From IMG/VR virus record IMGVR_UViG_3300011416_000023, positions 1 through 37,773 of that record: 37,773 bases of DNA. One strand, given 5' to 3'. Both the position numbers and the translations under genes were made by a program. The first letter of the stretch is position 1. Each line of letters opens with the position of its first letter. This stretch comes from a virus. The notes under the pieces were generated by a model, which was not told where the DNA came from, ran no database searches, and saw only the letters and a program-made list of their open reading frames with translations. Shown one piece after another: positions 3,471 through 31,661 of this stretch.

Positions 3471-4775
3471 ATGCCCATCGTCAGGTCCAACGGTCGTCTG
3501 CTCGGCGTCGGTTCCGGCGGGGTGAATACCCGCATGGGCCTCCTGCCATCGCCGGGCTTCGTGCCGATGTCGGCCGACGCATCCTACGCGCTCGGCACGC
3601 ATGGCACCGAGGGCAACGGCTACCGCAGCATCGGCGGCAGCTACGCCACCCTCTACCGCACCCAGCCGGCCCTGCGGACCGTCATCGACGCGGGCGCTCG
3701 CAACATCGCGCAGCTCGGCCTGCATGTCTTCGAGCGTGTCAACGACACCGACCGGCGGCGTGACACCAGCTCCCCGCTCGCGCAGCTGCTCGCGTACCCG
3801 AACCCCTACACGACGCCGTACCGGCTCTGGGAACACGCCCTTATCGACTTCGGTGTGTTTGGGAACGCCTATCTCCTGAAGCTCCGCCGCGAGGACGGCG
3901 AGGCGCCCGATGAGCTGTGGCGGATGCCCGCGGCGCGCGTCGGTGTGTGCGGCGACGTCTTCCCGACGGCCTACAGCTTCTACGGTTTCGACGGCCGCTG
4001 GTTCGAGATCCCCGCGAGTGAAGTGATCCACTTCCGCGAAGCGAACGTCGAGGGTGACTGCCCGCTCGGCACGTCGCGGATCGAGACGCTCCGGAAGAAG
4101 TTGATCGCGGAGACCTTGGCGCAGGACTACCGCATCAACTACTGGCGGCAGGGCGCTCGCATTCCCGGCGTGATTCATCGGCCCGTGGACGCGCCCGACT
4201 GGGACCCCGTGACGCGGCAGGCGTTCCGGCAGCAGTTCGCCGAAGTGTACGGCGGCACACAGGGCGCGGGCCTGGTGCCGGTGCTCGACGAGGGCATGAC
4301 CTACCACGAGGCGGGGCACAGCGCCGAAGAGCAGCAGCTGGCCGAAGCCCGCGAACTCCACGATGAGGAGGTCGCACGGGCGTATCACATGCCGCTGCCC
4401 GTCGTCGGCCTCCTGCGTCGCGCGACCTTCAGCAACGTCAAGGAACAGCACAAGATGTTGTACCAGGACGCGCTCGGCCCCACGATCCAGATGGCCGAGC
4501 AGGAGATCGAAGGCGGCCTCGTCAACGAGTTCGCGCTGCGCGGCACGCGGTACGTGGAGTTCAACGTGCGCGAGAAGCTGCGCGGCTCCTTCGAAGAGCA
4601 GGCCGCCTCGCTCAGCACCGCGCTCGGTGGTCACCCCTGGTTGTCGGTCAACGAAGCCCGCGCGATTCAGAACCTGCCGCGCAGCCTCGACCCCGCCCAC
4701 GACGAAGTCCCCTCGCCGCTGAACATGTCGAGCGGCGCCGACGCCGCGGCGGCAGCCGAAGGAGTGCCCGCATGA
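3471..4775 (+). CDS. Phage portal protein, HK97 gp3-like
   Basis: Encodes 434 residues. The portal forms the dodecameric ring at the head vertex through which DNA enters and leaves. Typical segments are LRTVIDAGARNIAQLGLHVF, LLAYPNPYTTPYRLWEH, VFGNAYLLKLR, HFREANVEGDCPLGTSRIE and VARAYHMPLPVVG, in the order seen in the Phage_portal family. Length is in the normal range. The end overlaps the protease start (ATGA at 4772). The C-terminal tail rich in Ala (GADAAAAAEG) is variable in the family. Confidence 0.93.
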   Translation: MPIVRSNGRLLGVGSGGVNTRMGLLPSPGFVPMSADASYALGTHGTEGNGYRSIGGSYATLYRTQPALRTVIDAGARNIAQLGLHVFERVNDTDRRRDTSSPLAQLLAYPNPYTTPYRLWEHALIDFGVFGNAYLLKLRREDGEAPDELWRMPAARVGVCGDVFPTAYSFYGFDGRWFEIPASEVIHFREANVEGDCPLGTSRIETLRKKLIAETLAQDYRINYWRQGARIPGVIHRPVDAPDWDPVTRQAFRQQFAEVYGGTQGAGLVPVLDEGMTYHEAGHSAEEQQLAEARELHDEEVARAYHMPLPVVGLLRRATFSNVKEQHKMLYQDALGPTIQMAEQEIEGGLVNEFALRGTRYVEFNVREKLRGSFEEQAASLSTALGGHPWLSVNEARAIQNLPRSLDPAHDEVPSPLNMSSGADAAAAAEGVPA

Positions 4776-23018: not shown

Positions 23019-25010
23019 ATGGCGCATACCTTCGGCAACGCCAGCACACGGGCGAACTCGACCGCGACCACGATCACGTCGGCCACGTACACGCCGACGA
23101 CGGATTCGACCGCGCTCGTGCTCGTGCTCTGGGTCCAGGGCGGCACGAACCGCGCAGGCGGGAATCCGACCTTCGCGGGCAATGCGCTGACGCAAGCCAA
23201 CTCGACGCAGAAGGCGGCCTCGTCGCCGGAGAGTAGTTGCGAGATTTGGTACATGGTGGGATCGCCCACCGTCCCGGCCAGTGGCACCGCCTCGATTCCG
23301 AACTCGGGCGGCCTGACGATCCATTACACCCTAGCCTCGTGCATTGCCGGCGCGGGCATGACGTCGCTCTTTGACGTCGCCGCCGGCAGCAACGGCACGA
23401 GCACCAACCCGACCGCGACCGCCTTCTCGGTCGCCGCCAACTCGTTCCAATTCGCGGCGGTGGCGAGCGGCGCGCAGACATTCGCGCCGAGTGGGCGCAC
23501 CGGCACCTCGATCGAGGAAGCAGACATCGGCTCGACAGGCATCGGCATCCAACGCCTAGCGACGGCCGGGGCCGGTTCTGTGACGATGTCGTGGACGTTC
23601 GGCACCTCGGACGATTGGGGCGCGGTCGCCGTCTCGTTCAAGGAAACGGCCGCACCGCTCACGCTGACCGGGTCCGCGGCGGTCGCGACGTGGAGCACGG
23701 CGGCCGGCACGGTGGCGACCACCGTCGCGCTCTCTGGGGCATCAGCGGCGCCGGCGTGGTCGGTGGCAGGCGGCGCGCTCGTCATTCCGGCGGCCCTGCT
23801 CGTGGAGCTCTTCGAGGGCGCGAGCCTGATCGCCTCCTGGCCCCTCTCGCCAACGACGCTGGCGCAGTCCGATCTCGATCTGTCGACACCGGAGCGCGAC
23901 AGCATTACCGACTGGACCGATCTCAGCGTCCGGTACACGAAGACGGGCGCCCAGGTCGACGTGCTGCAGACGTCGCTCGAGGCGCCGGACGGCGATAGCA
24001 GCGTCGTCACGTTGTCAGGCGCCGCGGCCGTCGCGACGTGGGTTGTCGCCGATGGTGCCTTAACCCTGACGGTCGCGCTGAGCGGCGTCGCAGCCGTCAG
24101 TACCTGGGCGGTCGCCGCCGGTGCCGTAGCCACAACGGTGCCGCTGGTCGGTGCCGGGGCCATCGCGACATGGGCCGTCGCTGGCGGCGCGCTCGAGATC
24201 GTCGTGCCGCTGGTGGGCGATGCGGCGGTGTCGACGTGGAGTGTCGCAGCCGGCGAGGTCACGATCACAATCGGCCTGGCCGGCGCCGCCGCGGTCGGCA
24301 CGTGGACGGTGGCCGCCGGCGCGCTCGAGGTGCAGGTAAGCCTCGCCGGCGCATCGGCTACCACCACGTGGGCGATCGCGGCCGGAGCGCTCGAGCTCGT
24401 CACGCCGCTATCTGGCGCTGCCGCCGTGGCCTCGTGGAGCGTCGCAGGGGGCGCACTGACGACGACGGTCGCGCTGAGCGGCGCGGCAGCCGTGGCGACG
24501 TGGGATGTCGCGGCAGGCACGCTCTCAGTGGCCGGCACGGTGGCCCTGGTGGGCGACGCCGCGGTTGCGAGTTGGGCCGTCGCCGCCGGCAGCCTGACGA
24601 CCACCGTTGATCTCGCCGGCGCCGCCGCGGTCGGCACGTGGGCCGTCGCCGCTGGCGATCTCACACTGACCGTGCCGATCACCGGGGCGAGCGCGGCAGC
24701 GTCGTGGATTGTGCCGACGGCGACCCTTGAGCTCGGCGTCGCCCTGAGCGGTCCGGCGGCCTCGGCAGCCTGGGCCGTCGCCGGCGGGACGATCGAGCAG
24801 ACGGTCGAGGCCATCGGTGCGTCGGCCGTGGCGACATGGGCCGTCCCGCTCGGCGTGATGGATTACGAGGGGCTCGCCTCCTACGCTGTCATCGTCCTGC
24901 GCAGCGCCAGGGCCGGCACGGCACAGACAACGACCCGCGCAGGCCAGGCGGCCACGACCGCACGCGCCGGCCGCGCGTCGACCACGGTCCGGACCCATCT
25001 CTCGGAGTAA
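23019..25010 (+). CDS. Large repeat protein with fifteen 22-residue units
   Basis: Encodes 663 residues. Residues 1-213 form a beta-rich N-terminal domain (SATYTPTTDSTALVLVLWVQ). From residue 214, units of the form V-x-L-x-G-x-A-A-V-A-T-W-x-V-A-x-G-A-L-x-x-x are repeated 15 times, each exactly 22 residues save unit 10 (24). Units 2 and 3 are parted by a 72-residue insert with LVELFEGASLIASWPLS, a motif found in phage virion beta domains. The C-terminus has three RAG-x-A-x-TT repeats. The alternating hydrophobic pattern suggests a beta-solenoid fibre. Confidence 0.78.
   Translation: MAHTFGNASTRANSTATTITSATYTPTTDSTALVLVLWVQGGTNRAGGNPTFAGNALTQANSTQKAASSPESSCEIWYMVGSPTVPASGTASIPNSGGLTIHYTLASCIAGAGMTSLFDVAAGSNGTSTNPTATAFSVAANSFQFAAVASGAQTFAPSGRTGTSIEEADIGSTGIGIQRLATAGAGSVTMSWTFGTSDDWGAVAVSFKETAAPLTLTGSAAVATWSTAAGTVATTVALSGASAAPAWSVAGGALVIPAALLVELFEGASLIASWPLSPTTLAQSDLDLSTPERDSITDWTDLSVRYTKTGAQVDVLQTSLEAPDGDSSVVTLSGAAAVATWVVADGALTLTVALSGVAAVSTWAVAAGAVATTVPLVGAGAIATWAVAGGALEIVVPLVGDAAVSTWSVAAGEVTITIGLAGAAAVGTWTVAAGALEVQVSLAGASATTTWAIAAGALELVTPLSGAAAVASWSVAGGALTTTVALSGAAAVATWDVAAGTLSVAGTVALVGDAAVASWAVAAGSLTTTVDLAGAAAVGTWAVAAGDLTLTVPITGASAAASWIVPTATLELGVALSGPAASAAWAVAGGTIEQTVEAIGASAVATWAVPLGVMDYEGLASYAVIVLRSARAGTAQTTTRAGQAATTARAGRASTTVRTHLSE
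23658..24869 (+). repeat. 66-bp tandem repeat array (15 units, one 216-bp insert)
   Basis: Units 1-2 occupy 23658-23789, the insert 23790-24005, and units 3-15 24006-24869. DNA of the units differs far more than the protein text, so the array is old and held by selection on protein. The conserved Trp and two Gly per unit mark the register. Confidence 0.85.
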
Positions 25011-25517: not shown

Positions 25518-25743
25518 CGTGACTCAGGCGTGACAACGGCAACGCATCACACGCGAAACATGGCGCATTTTCGAGGAAGCCCCATGCAGAGGTAGGCCCT
25601 ATGCGGTGCCTACGTGACCCTTTAGTTTCAGCGAATTACGGGCGAACTGTGGGGAGTCTCGCCCCGACCAACATCCCCTCCAGAAATACCGGTATTTTCG
25701 CCAGTTTCGCGTGACGTGACGTTCCACGTGACGGAGGCGTGAC
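25518..25743 (+). repeat. Cluster of seven CGTGAC hexamers
   Basis: CGTGAC begins at 25518, 25529, 25613, 25710, 25715, 25727 and 25738, all on the plus strand. A given hexamer is expected far less than once in 226 bases. The last four lie within 34 bases just before the first accessory gene, which fits binding sites for a regulator or replication-type iterons. Confidence 0.6.
25684..25697. promoter_or_regulatory. 14-bp perfect palindrome, operator candidate
   Basis: AAATACCGGTATTT is its own reverse complement. It sits some 65 bases before the start of the accessory gene at 25763, a fitting place for a dimeric repressor. It differs from the TGTTGA-type sites at 31339-31442, so a different protein would bind it. 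Confidence 0.45.
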
Positions 25744-25762
25744 AAGTGTCTGGTGGGCCACA

Positions 25763-26434
25763 ATGACGAAATTCAAGGCCCGGGGCTTGCCACAGCAGCC
25801 TGCTGAGGCCATCAAGCAGGTTGGCGCGCTGCGTCTCGACATGGCCGGGCAATCCTTGGCGGTTGATCTCGGAAAGCTCGACCCTCCTGAGCGCGCCTAT
25901 GACGCCGATGTGGCCTTCATCGATCACCGGGTGGGCAGTGTCACACTGCTCTTCGGCAAGATCGACCGCGATGCGCCAGAGGAACGCCTCCGCAACCGGC
26001 TTGAGATTCGATATCCCCCGGAAGATTTTTTGACGACGTTCTGGGGCCCGTCACTCAAATTTACGCGCAGCTTGGCCCGACTCGTCGAGACGTGGCCTTT
26101 ACCTGTCGAATCGGGCGAGGCCGCGCTGCGCTTGCCCGCATCCCAGTCGCATTCGGAGTGGGCGAGCTTTACCTACATGTCGCATTCGGGGACGGACGCG
26201 GCGATCGATTTCTATCACGTCTCATCATCTGCCCTCGCGCGGTGGCAGCAGGCACGTGAGACAACGCATCTGAAATTGAGGCCCATCCTTCGCGTGCAAG
26301 TGTCCATCTTTACGCTACACGCCTTGCTCGTGCAGGCCGAGGTGGTGGACAAGGCGATTCGGCAGTATCTACCCACGGCGTTGCGGAGAGATCTGCCGGC
26401 TGCACCGGAGACGGATTCGGAGACAGAAGCGTGA
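25763..26434 (+). CDS. Accessory gene A: hypothetical protein
   Basis: Encodes 223 residues. ATG 25763 is preferred (TKFKARGLPQQP); an earlier start at 25739 would lie within the CGTGAC repeats. The N-terminal half has strands (DVAFIDHRVGSVTLLFGKID) and a PPEDFLTTFWGPSLKFTRSL helix, a layout loosely like DUF3467-type proteins but not a sure match. The C-terminal half is mixed and ends in an acidic tail. First of three overlapping genes between the late operon and the integrase, so a lysogenic-conversion or defence gene is possible. Confidence 0.55.
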   Translation: MTKFKARGLPQQPAEAIKQVGALRLDMAGQSLAVDLGKLDPPERAYDADVAFIDHRVGSVTLLFGKIDRDAPEERLRNRLEIRYPPEDFLTTFWGPSLKFTRSLARLVETWPLPVESGEAALRLPASQSHSEWASFTYMSHSGTDAAIDFYHVSSSALARWQQARETTHLKLRPILRVQVSIFTLHALLVQAEVVDKAIRQYLPTALRRDLPAAPETDSETEA

Positions 26435-26853
26435 TCACCGAGCACGCTGGAACGACGAGCCACTACGTATTCGAGCCGGCTGTCGAATTCGCGCCCATTG
26501 ATGTGCCCGCGCCGGATGTCCTCAAGGGCACGGAAGCCGTGTGGGGCGGGAAACTGCTGCAGGCCGCGGCGACGGCAACTGCAGCGATGCTGACCCTGGT
26601 TCCGATATACTCGGCGATGGATGCGGGTGGCAGCGACCCAGTCGTCAAGGTGATCACGCGCGAGCACAGCGCCAGGCCGAAGGGCCGCCCTGCGGTGCCT
26701 CGTCCAGCCACGAGCGTCGCCGAAGTGGAGCTCCGTAACGTCACGGCGACGCCGGCGCCTCGGCTCGTCAAAGCCTATCGGGTACGCGCCGTGAGGACGA
26801 CGGCTGCTGTTCCGACACGCAGCCATGATCCCCTCGACGACGACGCCGAGTAG
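26431..26853 (+). CDS. Accessory gene B: small membrane-anchored protein
   Basis: Encodes 140 residues from GTG 26431 (GTGA overlap with gene A). One hydrophobic segment (residues about 42-60, LLQAAATATAAMLTLVPIYS) is followed by a basic, Pro/Arg-rich tail. Its last 29 bases overlap gene C in another frame. Family unknown. An anchor that links A or C to the membrane would fit. Confidence 0.5.
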   Translation: MITEHAGTTSHYVFEPAVEFAPIDVPAPDVLKGTEAVWGGKLLQAAATATAAMLTLVPIYSAMDAGGSDPVVKVITREHSARPKGRPAVPRPATSVAEVELRNVTATPAPRLVKAYRVRAVRTTAAVPTRSHDPLDDDAE

Positions 26854-27367
26854 CGTTTCGACCGCTCAGTACCCGTGGTATGCCGAGGTCCTGAACAACT
26901 CGCTTGAGCAGGGCGATGTGCTGAAGGACTGCCTGGAGCCCTTGCCTCCCTCCATCGGTGGCCCGATTCAGGTCGACAAGACTCCGGCCCACACCGTGGT
27001 TGTGCTGACGCAGTCGTGCGATCTCGCCCGTGACGGCGTGCCCCTGGTCATGGTGTGCCCGGTCTACACGTTCTCAACGTGGGTGAAGGTGCAGAAGGGA
27101 AGCACCAAGGACAACTGGCAGAAGCTGAAGAACGGCGCCTTGGTGCACCATCACCTTCTGAATCGCTGCACGGTGGCAGGCTTGGAGGAGGAGCATCTGG
27201 TAACCGACTTCCGCCAGGCCTTCAGCATCCCATGGAGCTACGCGCGCGAACTGGCCACGCAACCGTCGCGCGTGCGACTCTTGCCGCCTTATCGCGAGCA
27301 ACTGTCGCAGGCATTTGCCCGTTGCTACATGCGCGTCGGGCTGCCCAGCGAAGTCGATCCGATCTAG
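26825..27367 (+). CDS. Accessory gene C: conserved QSCDLA-motif protein
   Basis: Encodes 180 residues. The core HTVVVLTQSCDLARDGVPLV, followed by VMVCPVYTFSTW, resembles a motif I associate with small soluble proteins of unknown activity; the single Cys and Asp could be catalytic or metal-binding, but I cannot name the reaction. A SIPWSYARELATQPSRVRLL segment and an amphipathic helix (YREQLSQAFARCYMRVGL) end it. It overlaps gene B, and its stop region overlaps the integrase fragment on the other strand. Confidence 0.55.
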   Translation: MIPSTTTPSSVSTAQYPWYAEVLNNSLEQGDVLKDCLEPLPPSIGGPIQVDKTPAHTVVVLTQSCDLARDGVPLVMVCPVYTFSTWVKVQKGSTKDNWQKLKNGALVHHHLLNRCTVAGLEEEHLVTDFRQAFSIPWSYARELATQPSRVRLLPPYREQLSQAFARCYMRVGLPSEVDPI

Positions 27368-27446
27368 AAAGTCATCGCTGACAGGTCGGCCGCCTCGGGA
27401 TGCGTGTAGCGCGTCAGTTGCCGTAGGTTCTTCCACGCGCCGATCG
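27364..27446 (-). pseudogene. Fragment of an integrase C-terminus
   Basis: On minus, 27444 to 27364 reads IGAWKNLRQLTRYTHPEAAD, then LSAMTF and a TAG stop. It matches the end of the intact integrase (IGGWKSLRQLTRYTHPEAAD) and holds the catalytic Tyr. DNA at 27383-27446 is identical to 28194-28257 at 57 of 64 bases, with most changes silent. So it comes from a diverged integrase gene, not from a recent copy of this one. No upstream integrase body is left. Confidence 0.85.
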
Positions 27447-27469
27447 GCCCTAGACGGTGCTTCCGACGC

Positions 27470-28153
27470 TCAGTCCTGGTCTGCGTCCCAGTCAGCCGGT
27501 CGTCGTCGCCATTGCTCCCATCGCTTCCACGCGGCGAGGTGGCCGACGACGTAACCGGCGACTTCCCCGGGGGGTACAGAGTTGACGATGCCTTCCACCA
27601 TCGCTAGTGCGGAAATGCATGCCCAATCCGCCAGGGCTGGAGTACTGACAATGCGGAGCCAGTCATGAATGGCCGCGGGTGGCGCCGGAGCAAGGCACTG
27701 CTGCGGCAGACGAGTCAGAACCTTGCTGTGATTGAGTTCTACAACGCCTGGTTCCACCGACTCGAAGGTGGTGGACCGATGATGGACAATCGCGTTGCGT
27801 GCCTCTAGTAGGCGCTTGAAGTCTTGAAACGGGGCAGTCCCCTCGTCGAACGGTTCTCCTGCTATCGCGATCCGCGCCAGCTGCACCCTCCTCGTCAACG
27901 GATCTCGGTCGGCGCTTGCGAGCAGCGCGCTCAGCCGTCGCGAAATTGCCGAATCCGGGGCTGACGCCGCGAGGGATGGTAGTTCTGACAGGTAGCACTC
28001 AAGCGCTACCGCCGCGAACGTAATCGAGATAACCGGTTCCAATGAGCGTGAATCGAGTGGATTCCCCTTTGATGCCTCCATGGCACGCCGCTGCGCCTCC
28101 GTGGCGATCCCGAAGAGCTGGGACGAGTTCAGAAAGGCGCCGCCTGGGTTCAC
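27470..28153 (-). CDS. HEPN-motif protein
   Basis: Encodes 227 residues from GTG 28153 (a TTG at 28156 is an alternative; GAAGAGGA at 28162-28169 is the ribosome site). The body is helical, and LLEARNAIVHHRS (R119-N-x3-H124) is the RX4-6H signature of HEPN domains, whose members are often RNases in toxin-antitoxin, abortive infection or CRISPR systems. It starts 15 bases after the integrase stop, so both may share a transcript. No nucleotidyltransferase partner is seen beside it. Role as an exclusion or addiction gene is inferred. Confidence 0.62.
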   Translation of the reverse strand: MNPGGAFLNSSQLFGIATEAQRRAMEASKGNPLDSRSLEPVISITFAAVALECYLSELPSLAASAPDSAISRRLSALLASADRDPLTRRVQLARIAIAGEPFDEGTAPFQDFKRLLEARNAIVHHRSTTFESVEPGVVELNHSKVLTRLPQQCLAPAPPAAIHDWLRIVSTPALADWACISALAMVEGIVNSVPPGEVAGYVVGHLAAWKRWEQWRRRPADWDADQD

Positions 28154-28163
28154 CAACGTTGGT
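28152..28163. promoter_or_regulatory. 12-bp palindrome over the HEPN gene start
   Basis: ACCAACGTTGGT is a perfect palindrome covering both possible start codons of the HEPN gene and lying just after the integrase stop. It may be an operator, or an RNA hairpin that limits translation of a possibly toxic product. Confidence 0.45.
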
Positions 28164-28168
28164 CCTCT

Positions 28169-29212
28169 TCAGATCAGGTCGACGGCCGACGTGAGGTCAG
28201 CCGCCTCGGGATGCGTGTAGCGTGTCAGCTGCCGCAGGCTCTTCCACCCACCGATCGCCTGGATGACGCGCAAGCTCACGCCCGCCTGCACGAGCCGCGT
28301 CGCACCGGTATGACGTGTCGCGCTGTGCCAGGTGACCCCGACACCCGCCCCGTAGGGGATGTCAGCCCTCCAGCAGGCGCGCTTGAAGCGCGAGTGGAGC
28401 AGCGCGATCTGGCCGCTGCGCGTCTCCGACGTCACGTGGGCCGCGAAGACGTGGCCGTTCGTCCGCGGCACGCTGGCCAGGGCCTGCTGGGCACGCATCG
28501 CCAGCGGGACCGCATGCGGGCCGGTCTTCGTCTTGACGTGCAGCACGGTGCCGCGCACGTCCTTCCATTCGAGGTCGAGCAGACTCGAGATGCGGAGGAG
28601 GGTGGACACCGCAACGATGAACAGCGGCCGGTCGATCCGGCGGAGCGTGGTCAGCAGGCGCGCTTCCTCCTCGCGCGACAACGTGCGCCCCTCACGTTCC
28701 ACCGCGCGCAGGGGGGGGAGCTTGGTGAAATCGACACCTAACTGCGAGACGTGATCGGGCACGGCCCGCCGGAGCATGCGGCCGACGAGGCGCTCTTCCT
28801 GGCGGACCGTCGAGGCCATGCGCCCGGCCGCCAGGCGGTCCTTCCGGTACGCCAGGATGTCCGCGGCGGTGATGAGGTCCAGCCGGACCTCACCGAAATG
28901 CATCCGGAGGTGCCCGAGCATCGACCGCTGGCGCGCGACGCTGGCCTGCGGCGCGAGGACGTGGGCGTCGTACCAGGTGGCGTAGCGGTCGAACGTGCTC
29001 GCGGCGCCGTACCGCGCGGGCAGCCCCGCGGCGTGGCGCGCCGCATCGGCCTGGGCCAAGGCATACACCGCCTCGGCATCGCGCTTCTGCTGGGCCCGCT
29101 GTGCGGGCGTAGGCGCATCGACAACCACGCCCGTGCTGCGGCGCACGCGCCCCCGGCCCGGGCGTTCGACGGACATCCACCAAAAGGGGGAATCGGTGCG
29201 CTTGTAGATCAC
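28169..29212 (-). CDS. int: Tyrosine recombinase (phage integrase)
   Basis: Encodes 347 residues from GTG 29212, which overlaps the preceding stop (GTGA). It joins attP to the host attB. An arm-binding start (VIYKRTDSPFWWMSVERPGR), a SAM-like core-binding domain (about 72-150) and the catalytic domain follow. Catalytic residues: R207 (LLRISSLLDLEW), K229 (HVKTKTGPHAVPL), H296 and R300 (WHSATRHTGATRL), W323 (IGGW) and Y332 (RYTHP). H296 to R300 is one residue longer than the usual HxxR. The gene otherwise looks intact. Confidence 0.93.
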   Translation of the reverse strand: MIYKRTDSPFWWMSVERPGRGRVRRSTGVVVDAPTPAQRAQQKRDAEAVYALAQADAARHAAGLPARYGAASTFDRYATWYDAHVLAPQASVARQRSMLGHLRMHFGEVRLDLITAADILAYRKDRLAAGRMASTVRQEERLVGRMLRRAVPDHVSQLGVDFTKLPPLRAVEREGRTLSREEEARLLTTLRRIDRPLFIVAVSTLLRISSLLDLEWKDVRGTVLHVKTKTGPHAVPLAMRAQQALASVPRTNGHVFAAHVTSETRSGQIALLHSRFKRACWRADIPYGAGVGVTWHSATRHTGATRLVQAGVSLRVIQAIGGWKSLRQLTRYTHPEAADLTSAVDLI

Positions 29213-29460
29213 GCCTGCGTCGCCCAGCCCTTCTCGATGAACTGATCCTCCAGGGCCGCCGCATGGATGTCGGCGTCGGCCTCCTGGCGATGCACCTGCG
29301 TGAGGCGCGTGTCGCCGTCGACGTCCACGCGCAGCTCGAAGCCGAGCGGGTGCGGCACGATCCGGCACTGCACCATGCGCCCGCCGTCCTTGTGCACGCT
29401 CCAGCGCACAGGGTTGACCTTCGGCGGCTGCGGGTCCCGCCCGCCCCACCCGTCGCTCAT
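29209..29460 (-). CDS. Small hypothetical protein upstream of integrase
   Basis: Encodes 83 residues from ATG 29460 (MSDGWGGRDPQPPKVNPVRW), overlapping the preceding stop. A beta-beta-alpha layout (GGRMVQCRIVPHPLGFELRV, then QEADADIHAAALEDQFIEKG) is seen. It might act as a recombination-directionality or DNA-binding helper, given its coupling to the integrase, but no HTH is clear. Confidence 0.55.
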   Translation of the reverse strand: MSDGWGGRDPQPPKVNPVRWSVHKDGGRMVQCRIVPHPLGFELRVDVDGDTRLTQVHRQEADADIHAAALEDQFIEKGWATQA

Positions 29461-29622: not shown

Positions 29623-29724
29623 TCAATGCACGTCCCGGCGTTCCTCGGCCCGCTCGAGCAGGAGCGACCGGCGGAAGGTCGCGACCTCGGGGCCAGTAAG
29701 CGAGATCCCACGCGGCGGTGTCAT
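29623..29724 (-). CDS. 33-residue small protein in overlapping gene chain
   Basis: ATG 29724 overlaps the stop of the zinc-ribbon gene (ATGA). The text [20 protein letters not shown] then LLLERAEERRDVH ends at TGA 29623. A second frame of 17 codons (ATG 29623 to TGA 29570) bridges to the TM peptide with TGATG overlaps. The unbroken chain of couplings supports translation, but so short a frame may exist only to carry ribosomes onward. Confidence 0.35.
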   Translation of the reverse strand: MTPPRGISLTGPEVATFRRSLLLERAEERRDVH

Positions 29725-30224
29725 CAGCGCTCCTCGCTGATAGACCAAGTGACGTTGTCAGCCTTTGTGATCTCCACGGTGCCGCCTTGAATGAGGTGCA
29801 CGCCCTCATATGGGTTCTGTTCTCTCAGCACCGCGTTGACGATGCTCCGACCATTCACCAAGACGACGAAGTTGGACGCACCGGAGCCTGACCAGCGGCC
29901 GATAACACGCGCTCGAACCGGTCGCTTTGGCGCGTCGAACACGTAGGCCCCTTTCCCGGCCAACTCGAACGGCATGGACGCGCCTGCTGCGACGCTTGGT
30001 GTGCCTTTAGTGTCACGATCGGGCGTCGACCTGTGAGACATCTCGACCAGGGCGTTCAACGCCATGGCGACGAACGCCAAAGCGACGATCCCGACGGCAA
30101 CGCGAGCCAGCCATGGGGAATCAGACGCCGGCGGAGGTACTGTCACCAGCAAGCTGCGTCCGCACCATCGGCAGACGATGGCATCGTCCTGAATCTCCTC
30201 AGCGCAATAGGGGCACGCCTTCAT
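29724..30224 (-). CDS. Zinc-ribbon membrane protein
   Basis: Encodes 166 residues from ATG 30224, the start that places [20 protein letters not shown] at the N-terminus. This is a double-CxxC zinc ribbon as found in many membrane proteins. A hydrophobic helix (about 38-57, [20 protein letters not shown]) follows, then a soluble domain with strands ([33 protein letters not shown]). The zinc ribbon should be cytoplasmic and the rest periplasmic or outside. A lysogenic conversion role is possible. Confidence 0.65.
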
Positions 30225-30285
30225 GGCCTCAGCCTCTGGAAGGGCGAGCCGGGCAGGGGCGGCCACGCGATCCGCTCACGACGAT

Positions 30286-30630
30286 CTATTTCCCGCTGCG
30301 CTCGCGCTCGATGGCATCAAGCTCTCGCGCGCGTTGCAGGTCGCTCTCACGACTCGAAACGGGAAGGATGGGGACGGCAGCTAACACGAGCAGGACGCCC
30401 GCAACGATGACTCCGACGACGAGATACTGACTGGCTTTGCGGTCCGCGATGCCAGCCAGCTCAAGACCACGCGCGAGCACGTACGGCATGATCGCAAAGG
30501 CGCACGCCATGGCCATCCCGGCAGCCTCCTGTGGCGCGCTCTTGGCGGTCAGCAAAGTGGTCGCGATCATGAGTCCGGCGGCTAGGCTACCCAGGATCGG
30601 GAGTAGACCAATCACATTCATCGTCGCCAT
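30286..30630 (-). CDS. Multi-TM membrane protein beside repressor
   Basis: Encodes 114 residues with three to four hydrophobic segments: VIGLLPILGSLAAGLMIATT, AAGMAMACAFAIMPYVLARG and YLVVGVIVAGVLLVLAAVPI, then a charged tail (ESDLQRARELDAIERERSGK). It begins three bases after the repressor stop, so it is likely expressed in the lysogen together with it. Superinfection exclusion proteins are often of this type; inferred only. Confidence 0.6.
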   Translation of the reverse strand: MATMNVIGLLPILGSLAAGLMIATTLLTAKSAPQEAAGMAMACAFAIMPYVLARGLELAGIADRKASQYLVVGVIVAGVLLVLAAVPILPVSSRESDLQRARELDAIERERSGK

Positions 30631-30633
30631 CCG

Positions 30634-31335
30634 TTAGCCTTCTTTTCGTTTCGCCCACACCACGGGGTACATGACCTGGATGTCCTCGGCCTTCACGAAC
30701 CGCGGCGAATATGTTGGGTTCGCACTTTCTAACACGTAGCCGCCGTCGGCGCGATACGCGATCTTGATCAGGCGCTCGCCCGTGGTGAGTGCGACGAAGA
30801 CCTCGTCGCCTGGCGCGACTGGGATGTTCGGACTCACCACCACGTAGCGGCCCGGTCGGAACACCGGGACCATCGAGTCGCCCTTCACCATCACGGCGAA
30901 CGCGTTCTTGTCAGTCACGCCCTCGGGCCGCGACACGCGCCGCTCCGCGTAAGCCTCGATCGAGGCTGCGTCCTCGTACACGATCCGGCCCTCCCCGGCC
31001 TGGGCTTCTGTAATCAACGGGATGTCCACGGGCTTGTACCCGGCGTAGGTGTCGAGGTCCAGCTTTTCCACCTCGCTCGCCGTCTGGGGCCCATGCCCAG
31101 CGAAGTGAAGGACAGCGTGGTCTAGGAGTGCCAGGAGTTCGCCCGGCGGCACTCCGAACACGGGCGCGAGCGCGCGCAACGTCTCGGGGCTCGCCTCCAC
31201 GGCGCCGCGCTCAATACGGCTAATCGTCTCGCCCGTTGTACCGGCACGCTCCGCCAGCTCGTCCTGTGTGAGGCTCAGCCGCTTCCGATGCTCCCTGACG
31301 ACATGCCGCAGTCCAAACCTGACATCAAGAGACAT
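30634..31335 (-). CDS. cI: CI/LexA-like repressor with S24 peptidase domain
   Basis: Encodes 233 residues from ATG 31335, the start that leaves a clean HTH_3 domain (LTQDELAERAGTTGETISRI, residues 22-41). The C-terminal S24 domain has S154 (KGDSMVP) and K191 (ERLIKIAYR), with a probable self-cleavage site at A113-G114 (EAQAGEG). So the protein should hold lysogeny and be cut after RecA-dependent damage. It faces the Cro-like gene across TGTTGA half-sites. Longer frames up to 31431 run through the operator and are not used. Confidence 0.92.
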   Translation of the reverse strand: MSLDVRFGLRHVVREHRKRLSLTQDELAERAGTTGETISRIERGAVEASPETLRALAPVFGVPPGELLALLDHAVLHFAGHGPQTASEVEKLDLDTYAGYKPVDIPLITEAQAGEGRIVYEDAASIEAYAERRVSRPEGVTDKNAFAVMVKGDSMVPVFRPGRYVVVSPNIPVAPGDEVFVALTTGERLIKIAYRADGGYVLESANPTYSPRFVKAEDIQVMYPVVWAKRKEG

Positions 31336-31387
31336 CGCTGTTGAATTCTCAACATCTGTCGGGCAATGTGGAAGGACATGCATGTTG

Positions 31388-31393
31388 ATTATC
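31388..31393 (-). promoter_or_regulatory. Minus -10 box for the repressor promoter
   Basis: On minus the bases read GATAAT, a good -10 match, giving a start near 31381 and a 45-base leader to the repressor ATG. The -35 (GACTAT, 17 bases upstream) is poor, as is common for promoters that need activation. The box lies between two TGTTGA half-sites. Confidence 0.45.
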
Positions 31394-31396
31394 CTG

Positions 31397-31426
31397 TTGA
31401 CAAAGCTGGCATAGTCCGCGTAAAAC
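31397..31426 (+). promoter_or_regulatory. Promoter of the Cro-like gene, leaderless candidate
   Basis: TTGACA at 31397-31402 is a perfect -35. With an 18-base spacer the -10 is TAAAAC (31421-31426). A start about seven bases on would fall at or just before ATG 31434, and no ribosome site precedes that ATG, so the message may be leaderless. The -35 overlaps a TGTTGA half-site. Confidence 0.5.
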
Positions 31427-31433
31427 AACACAC

Positions 31434-31661
31434 ATGTTGTTTGAGCTGATGCGGCGCCGAAGGCTCGCTGGGCTTACCCAGCGTGAATTGGCCACGCGAG
31501 CGGGGGTTCACCCGGAAACCATTTCGCGCCTAGAGAGAGGGGCTGTTGCCGGCAGCCCCGAGGCCGAAACGCTGCGCAAGCTGGCGAATGCGCTCGCCCT
31601 TACGCCTGAGCAGCTGTTTCCGGAGTTGCTGGGCACATCGGAGTCATCGCCGGCCGCCTAG
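31434..31661 (+). CDS. Cro-like HTH regulator
   Basis: Encodes 75 residues, one HTH_3 domain (GLTQRELATRAGVHPETISR, residues 13-32) much like the repressor's (LTQDELAERAGTTGETISRI), so the two likely bind the same sites. Placed divergent to the repressor at the head of the early operon, as for Cro. The end is a Ser/Pro tail. The next 190 bases hold no sure gene; a 40-codon frame on minus (31658-31780) is noted but weak. Confidence 0.85.
   Translation: MLFELMRRRRLAGLTQRELATRAGVHPETISRLERGAVAGSPEAETLRKLANALALTPEQLFPELLGTSESSPAA

Follow-up and report, generated by a model that had tools for sequence, protein, structure and literature searches.

Organization of the phage genome

The analyzed window is the whole of IMG/VR virus record IMGVR_UViG_3300011416_000023 (37,773 bases), which originates from an environmental metagenome. 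The record is a temperate tailed-phage genome, and no terminal repeat was detected across its 37,773 bases. The terminase and structural genes run rightward from the left end of the record, accessory genes occupy 25.7 to 27.4 kb, a leftward block spans from a cI-type repressor gene (positions 30634 to 31335) to position 27470, and the rightward early genes begin at 31434, where the first encodes a Cro-like HTH protein. Toward the end of the structural genes, a 663-amino-acid open reading frame (ORF; 23019 to 25010, plus strand) contains alanine/valine-rich repeats (GAAAVATWAVAAGALTTTVALSG...) and probably encodes a repetitive protein of the tail or surface. Other samples contributed two short IMG/VR contigs with a terminase stretch that is 100% identical to that of the record, and neither extends to the integrase region; these matching stretches indicate that the phage occurred in several samples.

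Three close-packed rightward accessory genes (25739 to 27367, plus strand; 231, 140, and 180 amino acids) separate the tail genes from the integrase remnant described below. None of them matched a Pfam, NCBIfam, or PADLOC family, and the defense libraries likewise returned no match for these neighbors. Two of the three gave weak PHROG matches only (function unknown), and in two of the three the G+C content is below that of the structural genes.

The leftward block starts with the repressor gene (30634 to 31335, minus strand), identified by its HTH and S24 peptidase domains in Pfam and PHROG searches; its ORF extends to 31431. Between the repressor and the integrase, the ORF list places two leftward genes of unknown function (29724 to 30266 and 30286 to 30630; gaps of 19 and 3 nt), followed by a small gene directly before the integrase (29209 to 29460, minus strand; 83 amino acids), for which library searches found no family. 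The intact tyrosine integrase gene (28169 to 29212, minus strand; stop codon at 28169 to 28171) has a PF00589 catalytic domain (64 bits against a cutoff of 27.1; E value, 1.9e-17) and matches phrog_1 (E value, 2e-39). Inspection of its start points to a probable GTG codon that shares bases with the stop codon of its upstream neighbor (GTGA), and its composition is 71% G+C, with a GC3 of 0.90. All genes from the repressor through the integrase to a HEPN-motif gene are closely packed on one strand, and, because of this arrangement and the GTGA overlap, the natural reading is a single lysogeny operon that ends in the HEPN-motif gene and is presumably transcribed jointly. Consensus scans returned no promoter or terminator. 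A palindrome, TGTTGAATTCTCAACA, in the stretch that separates the repressor from the Cro-like gene (31339 to 31433) could be an operator.

A direct repeat marks the probable remnant of a second integrase gene

The longest direct repeat found by a repeat search within 25.5 to 30.5 kb consists of positions 27383 to 27446 and 28194 to 28257 (spacing, 811), which are identical at 57 of 64 bases (89%) in the same orientation, exactly as the first-pass annotation had reported. The left copy stays in frame past the catalytic Tyr as far as a stop codon of its own (TAG; 27364 to 27366), which was also correctly read from the start. The annotation had further placed the HEPN ORF between the two copies; this placement holds (27470 to 28156), with the correction that the right copy, given the integrase stop at 28169 to 28171, is internal to the integrase gene (minus strand), within the catalytic Tyr region of its 3' end. 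Reading frames are intact on both sides of the repeat.

The left copy is part of a segment (27364 to 27446, minus strand) that, judged from the repeat, a search of the record, and a base-by-base comparison, represents what is left of an older, related integrase gene, namely its final ~27 codons. In translation it reads RRKHRLGP and then IGAWKNLRQLTRYTHPEAADLSAMTF up to its stop, and the intact integrase ends in VIQA and then IGGWKSLRQLTRYTHPEAADLTSAVDLI. Upstream, similarity to the integrase breaks off abruptly at the codon that corresponds to residue 326 in the integrase translation used here (IGGWK...); at the other end, the C-terminal residues of the two copies differ, and one codon is missing. 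The TAG of the remnant overlaps the TAG of the last accessory gene (26825 to 27367, plus strand), which converges on it (CTAG). When the integrase was used as a query against the whole record, only two places were hit (i.e., its own gene and 27376 to 27450 [E value, 1.2e-8]), so that no other fragments of the older integrase are present in the record.

The seven differences between the 64-base copies fall at codon positions 3, 2, 2, 3, 3, 3, and 3, and five are synonymous and two nonsynonymous. The longest exact match is 23 bases and codes for the conserved RYTHPEA catalytic motif. Among the 20 best-aligned residues, 18 match the resident integrase, compared with at most 10 of 20 for the tails of other relatives (about 24 to 32% identical overall); because of this difference, the remnant appears to be the 3' end of a second integrase that was a very close relative of the resident one. 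We also simulated seven random substitutions in 20 codons of the intact gene, with a transition bias of 1 to 8, and obtained two or fewer amino acid changes in only 1.4 to 4% of the simulations. This result favors a separately evolved, functional integrase that was recently truncated over a decayed internal duplicate, and the preference for divergence under coding constraint over neutral drift is suggestive, not overwhelming. The earlier observation that the changes are mostly silent was borne out, and the proposed origin of the left copy in another integrase is supported.

A HEPN-motif gene follows the integrase

The HEPN-motif gene (27470 to 28156, minus strand; TTG start at 28156 or GTG start at 28153) encodes 227 to 228 amino acids and was delineated from the ORF list, its motif, and library searches. 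A gap of 12 nt, which contains an RBS-like AAGAGG, separates its start from the integrase stop. Its composition (62% G+C; GC3, 0.67) is lower than that of the integrase, and, because of this difference in G+C content (71% versus 62%), the two genes may have arrived separately.

HEPN proteins are defined by an Rx4-6H motif with a polar residue after the R (PMC3710099), and the protein contains RNAIVH (Rx4H), in which N follows R. The best Pfam model, PF18735, scored 11.2 bits against a cutoff of 28.4, and PADLOC RTasHEPN gave an E value of 0.017 over 18 residues; both subthreshold matches fall on the RNAIVH motif. A protein of about the same length, encoded on a Vibrio plasmid, shares 23% identity and retains the motif as RNELVH. 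Given the motif and this one distant homolog family, the gene product is a probable HEPN protein. The HEPN call of the first-pass annotation therefore stands as probable on the motif, whereas library matches are weak and no curated model reaches its cutoff. A single-sequence structure model was helical, with a mean pLDDT of 40, and carries no confidence. By analogy with other members of the superfamily, the protein may be an RNase acting in abortive infection.

The only detectable homologs are encoded on large Vibrio plasmids, beside genes for DUF2971, YiiX-like hydrolase, and DUF4365 proteins (3998 to 4660 for the homolog in the examined Vibrio parahaemolyticus plasmid sequence, NZ_CP114188.1), in a neighborhood that is perhaps a defense or conflict island. 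An integron cassette was considered for this homolog and rejected, because no repeated sites of at least 25 bases lie between the genes of the neighborhood.

Relatives in sequence collections

Relatives of the integrase in IMG/VR and in GTDB genomes were only ~30% identical. IMG/VR searches with the HEPN protein, the product of the gene at 26825, and the repressor returned nothing useful, and a comparison of the HEPN protein with 398 GTDB genomes gave one chance match, in a flagellar gene. The exact 23-base repeat core was absent from IMG/VR, and a degenerate-codon pattern for RYTHPEA had 12 matches there, none of which were integrases. Screening of the terminase relatives for integrases yielded two above the cutoff among 18 mostly short, distant records, and the stretches around these two showed no arrangement usable for comparison. 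The collections searched thus contained no close relatives of the integrase, the HEPN protein, or the neighboring gene, and we found no host or prophage copy. By these comparisons, the phage appears to represent a lineage without close described relatives.

Origin of the integrase remnant

The explanation that we favor, and which we regard as reasonably probable, is that replacement of the integrase left a scar and that the putative abortive-infection HEPN RNase is distal cargo of a repressor-integrase operon. In the lysogeny operon of this temperate phage, the repressor (about 31335) would come first, followed leftward by small genes, the integrase, and finally the HEPN-motif cargo gene. Recombination would have put the integrase end of this operon in the place of an older, closely related integrase, whether or not the HEPN gene arrived in that event, and the left junction would have fallen inside the old integrase gene, leaving its last 27 codons beside their former convergent partner. 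In a lysogen, the HEPN protein would then be made from the repressor operon and, as an RNase, might abort infections with other phages. One of two routes suggested in the first-pass annotation, a swap in which the end of an old integrase stayed behind, is supported by the very close source of the remnant, the abrupt break in similarity, the purifying pattern of substitutions, and the overlapping stop codons. The pre-swap state was seen in none of the relatives found.

Aberrant excision is a close rival to simple replacement, although we consider it the less probable course: the phage would have resided beside an element with a related integrase and left carrying the HEPN gene and the integrase tail of its neighbor. 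There is precedent in TP-778L, in which a complete prophage integrase recombined with the truncated integrase of a neighboring phage remnant (PMC3952083), and the lower G+C content and GC3 of the HEPN gene relative to the integrase agree with such an origin. The overlapping stops of the remnant and the gene at 26825 speak for old neighbors instead (this overlap could be chance), and the searches for a host or prophage copy came back empty. It is rather improbable that the left copy is a decayed internal duplication of the 3' end of the resident integrase gene or the product of two strains joined in assembly. The region is present in one record only, the identical terminase contigs from the two other samples ending short of it, which leaves room for such an artifact. 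Nevertheless, so few amino acid changes for seven substitutions are improbable under drift (1.4 to 4%), and the differing terminal residues and missing codon argue against an internal duplication; for an assembly joint, a longest exact match of 23 bases is short, and the frames are intact on both sides.

The other suggested route was integration at an att core within int, with the HEPN gene as a mobile module linked to the integration site. The integrase 3' end would contain an att core, as it does in phage Mx8, and the HEPN segment of 811 bp would be a cassette that the integrase mobilizes and that can be inserted or lost. Such sites have precedents, attP being inside int in Mx8 (PMC6070905) and overlapping the int 3' end in Streptococcus thermophilus prophages (PMC3952083), and the two direct copies flanking the HEPN gene share 23 identical bases in a row. 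This identity is nonetheless accounted for by protein constraint, because the stretch encodes the conserved RYTHPEA catalytic motif. Scored for inverted repeats with a short spacer, neither copy exceeds shuffled sequence (the left copy is below the shuffle mean), no tRNA or other Rfam feature lies near the integrase region, and a relative with an empty site was not found in the collections searched. The evidence thus fails to support either an att core or a module tied to the integration site, and we consider this reading very unlikely. Its fullest form, to which we assign the slightest probability of all, is that the 811-bp unit, made up of the HEPN gene and a single integrase tail, constitutes a nonautonomous cassette that the phage integrase moves by way of an att core in the 3' end of its own gene, such that one recombination step gains or loses a defense gene and swaps the integrase C terminus; if true, this would be a new way of trading defense genes between phages. 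A cassette of the integron type was rejected, since the repeat is integrase coding sequence rather than an attC recombination site.

With no sign of a new mobile cassette, the locus resembles the ordinary scar that module swapping leaves in phages (i.e., mosaicism), with a putative defense cargo gene. If integrase replacement is the right explanation, this is one more temperate phage in which a putative HEPN abortive-infection gene ends the repressor-integrase operon, and the remnant is a small fossil of how the integrase end of such an operon is exchanged and gains cargo.

Comparison with known systems

The tail-activated HEPN RNase Tha is encoded in the cI operon of Staphylococcus aureus phages 80alpha and PhiNM2 (PMC11087260), and it shares with the gene described here a prophage location in a leftward repressor operon, near the integrase, and the RNxxxH motif. 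A comparison of Tha (80alpha gp03) with the HEPN protein aligned the nine-residue motif alone, and the gene order differs, being cI-tha-int plus an antisense inhibitor gene (ith) in 80alpha and cI-int-HEPN here. The position of the HEPN gene thus seems analogous to that of Tha, with proteins that are not detectably homologous beyond the motif. The lactococcal abortive-infection HEPN proteins AbiD, AbiF, AbiJ, and AbiU2 (PMC3710099) have in common with this protein the Rx4-6H motif, an all-helical expectation, and a phage-linked location, but no Pfam, NCBIfam, or PADLOC model for these proteins reaches its cutoff on the HEPN-motif protein.

Regarding the integrase, S. thermophilus TP-778L underwent recombination between complete and truncated related integrase genes (PMC3952083), and both cases involve a truncated related integrase gene in recombination at an integrase end. 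TP-778L lost its complete integrase, whereas in the present phage the cargo gene lies between an integrase that is intact and a separate remnant. As for Myxococcus phage Mx8, both readings turn on an exchanged integrase 3' end; the location of attP within int is established for Mx8 (PMC6070905), whereas no core-like structure was seen in the repeat copies of this phage.
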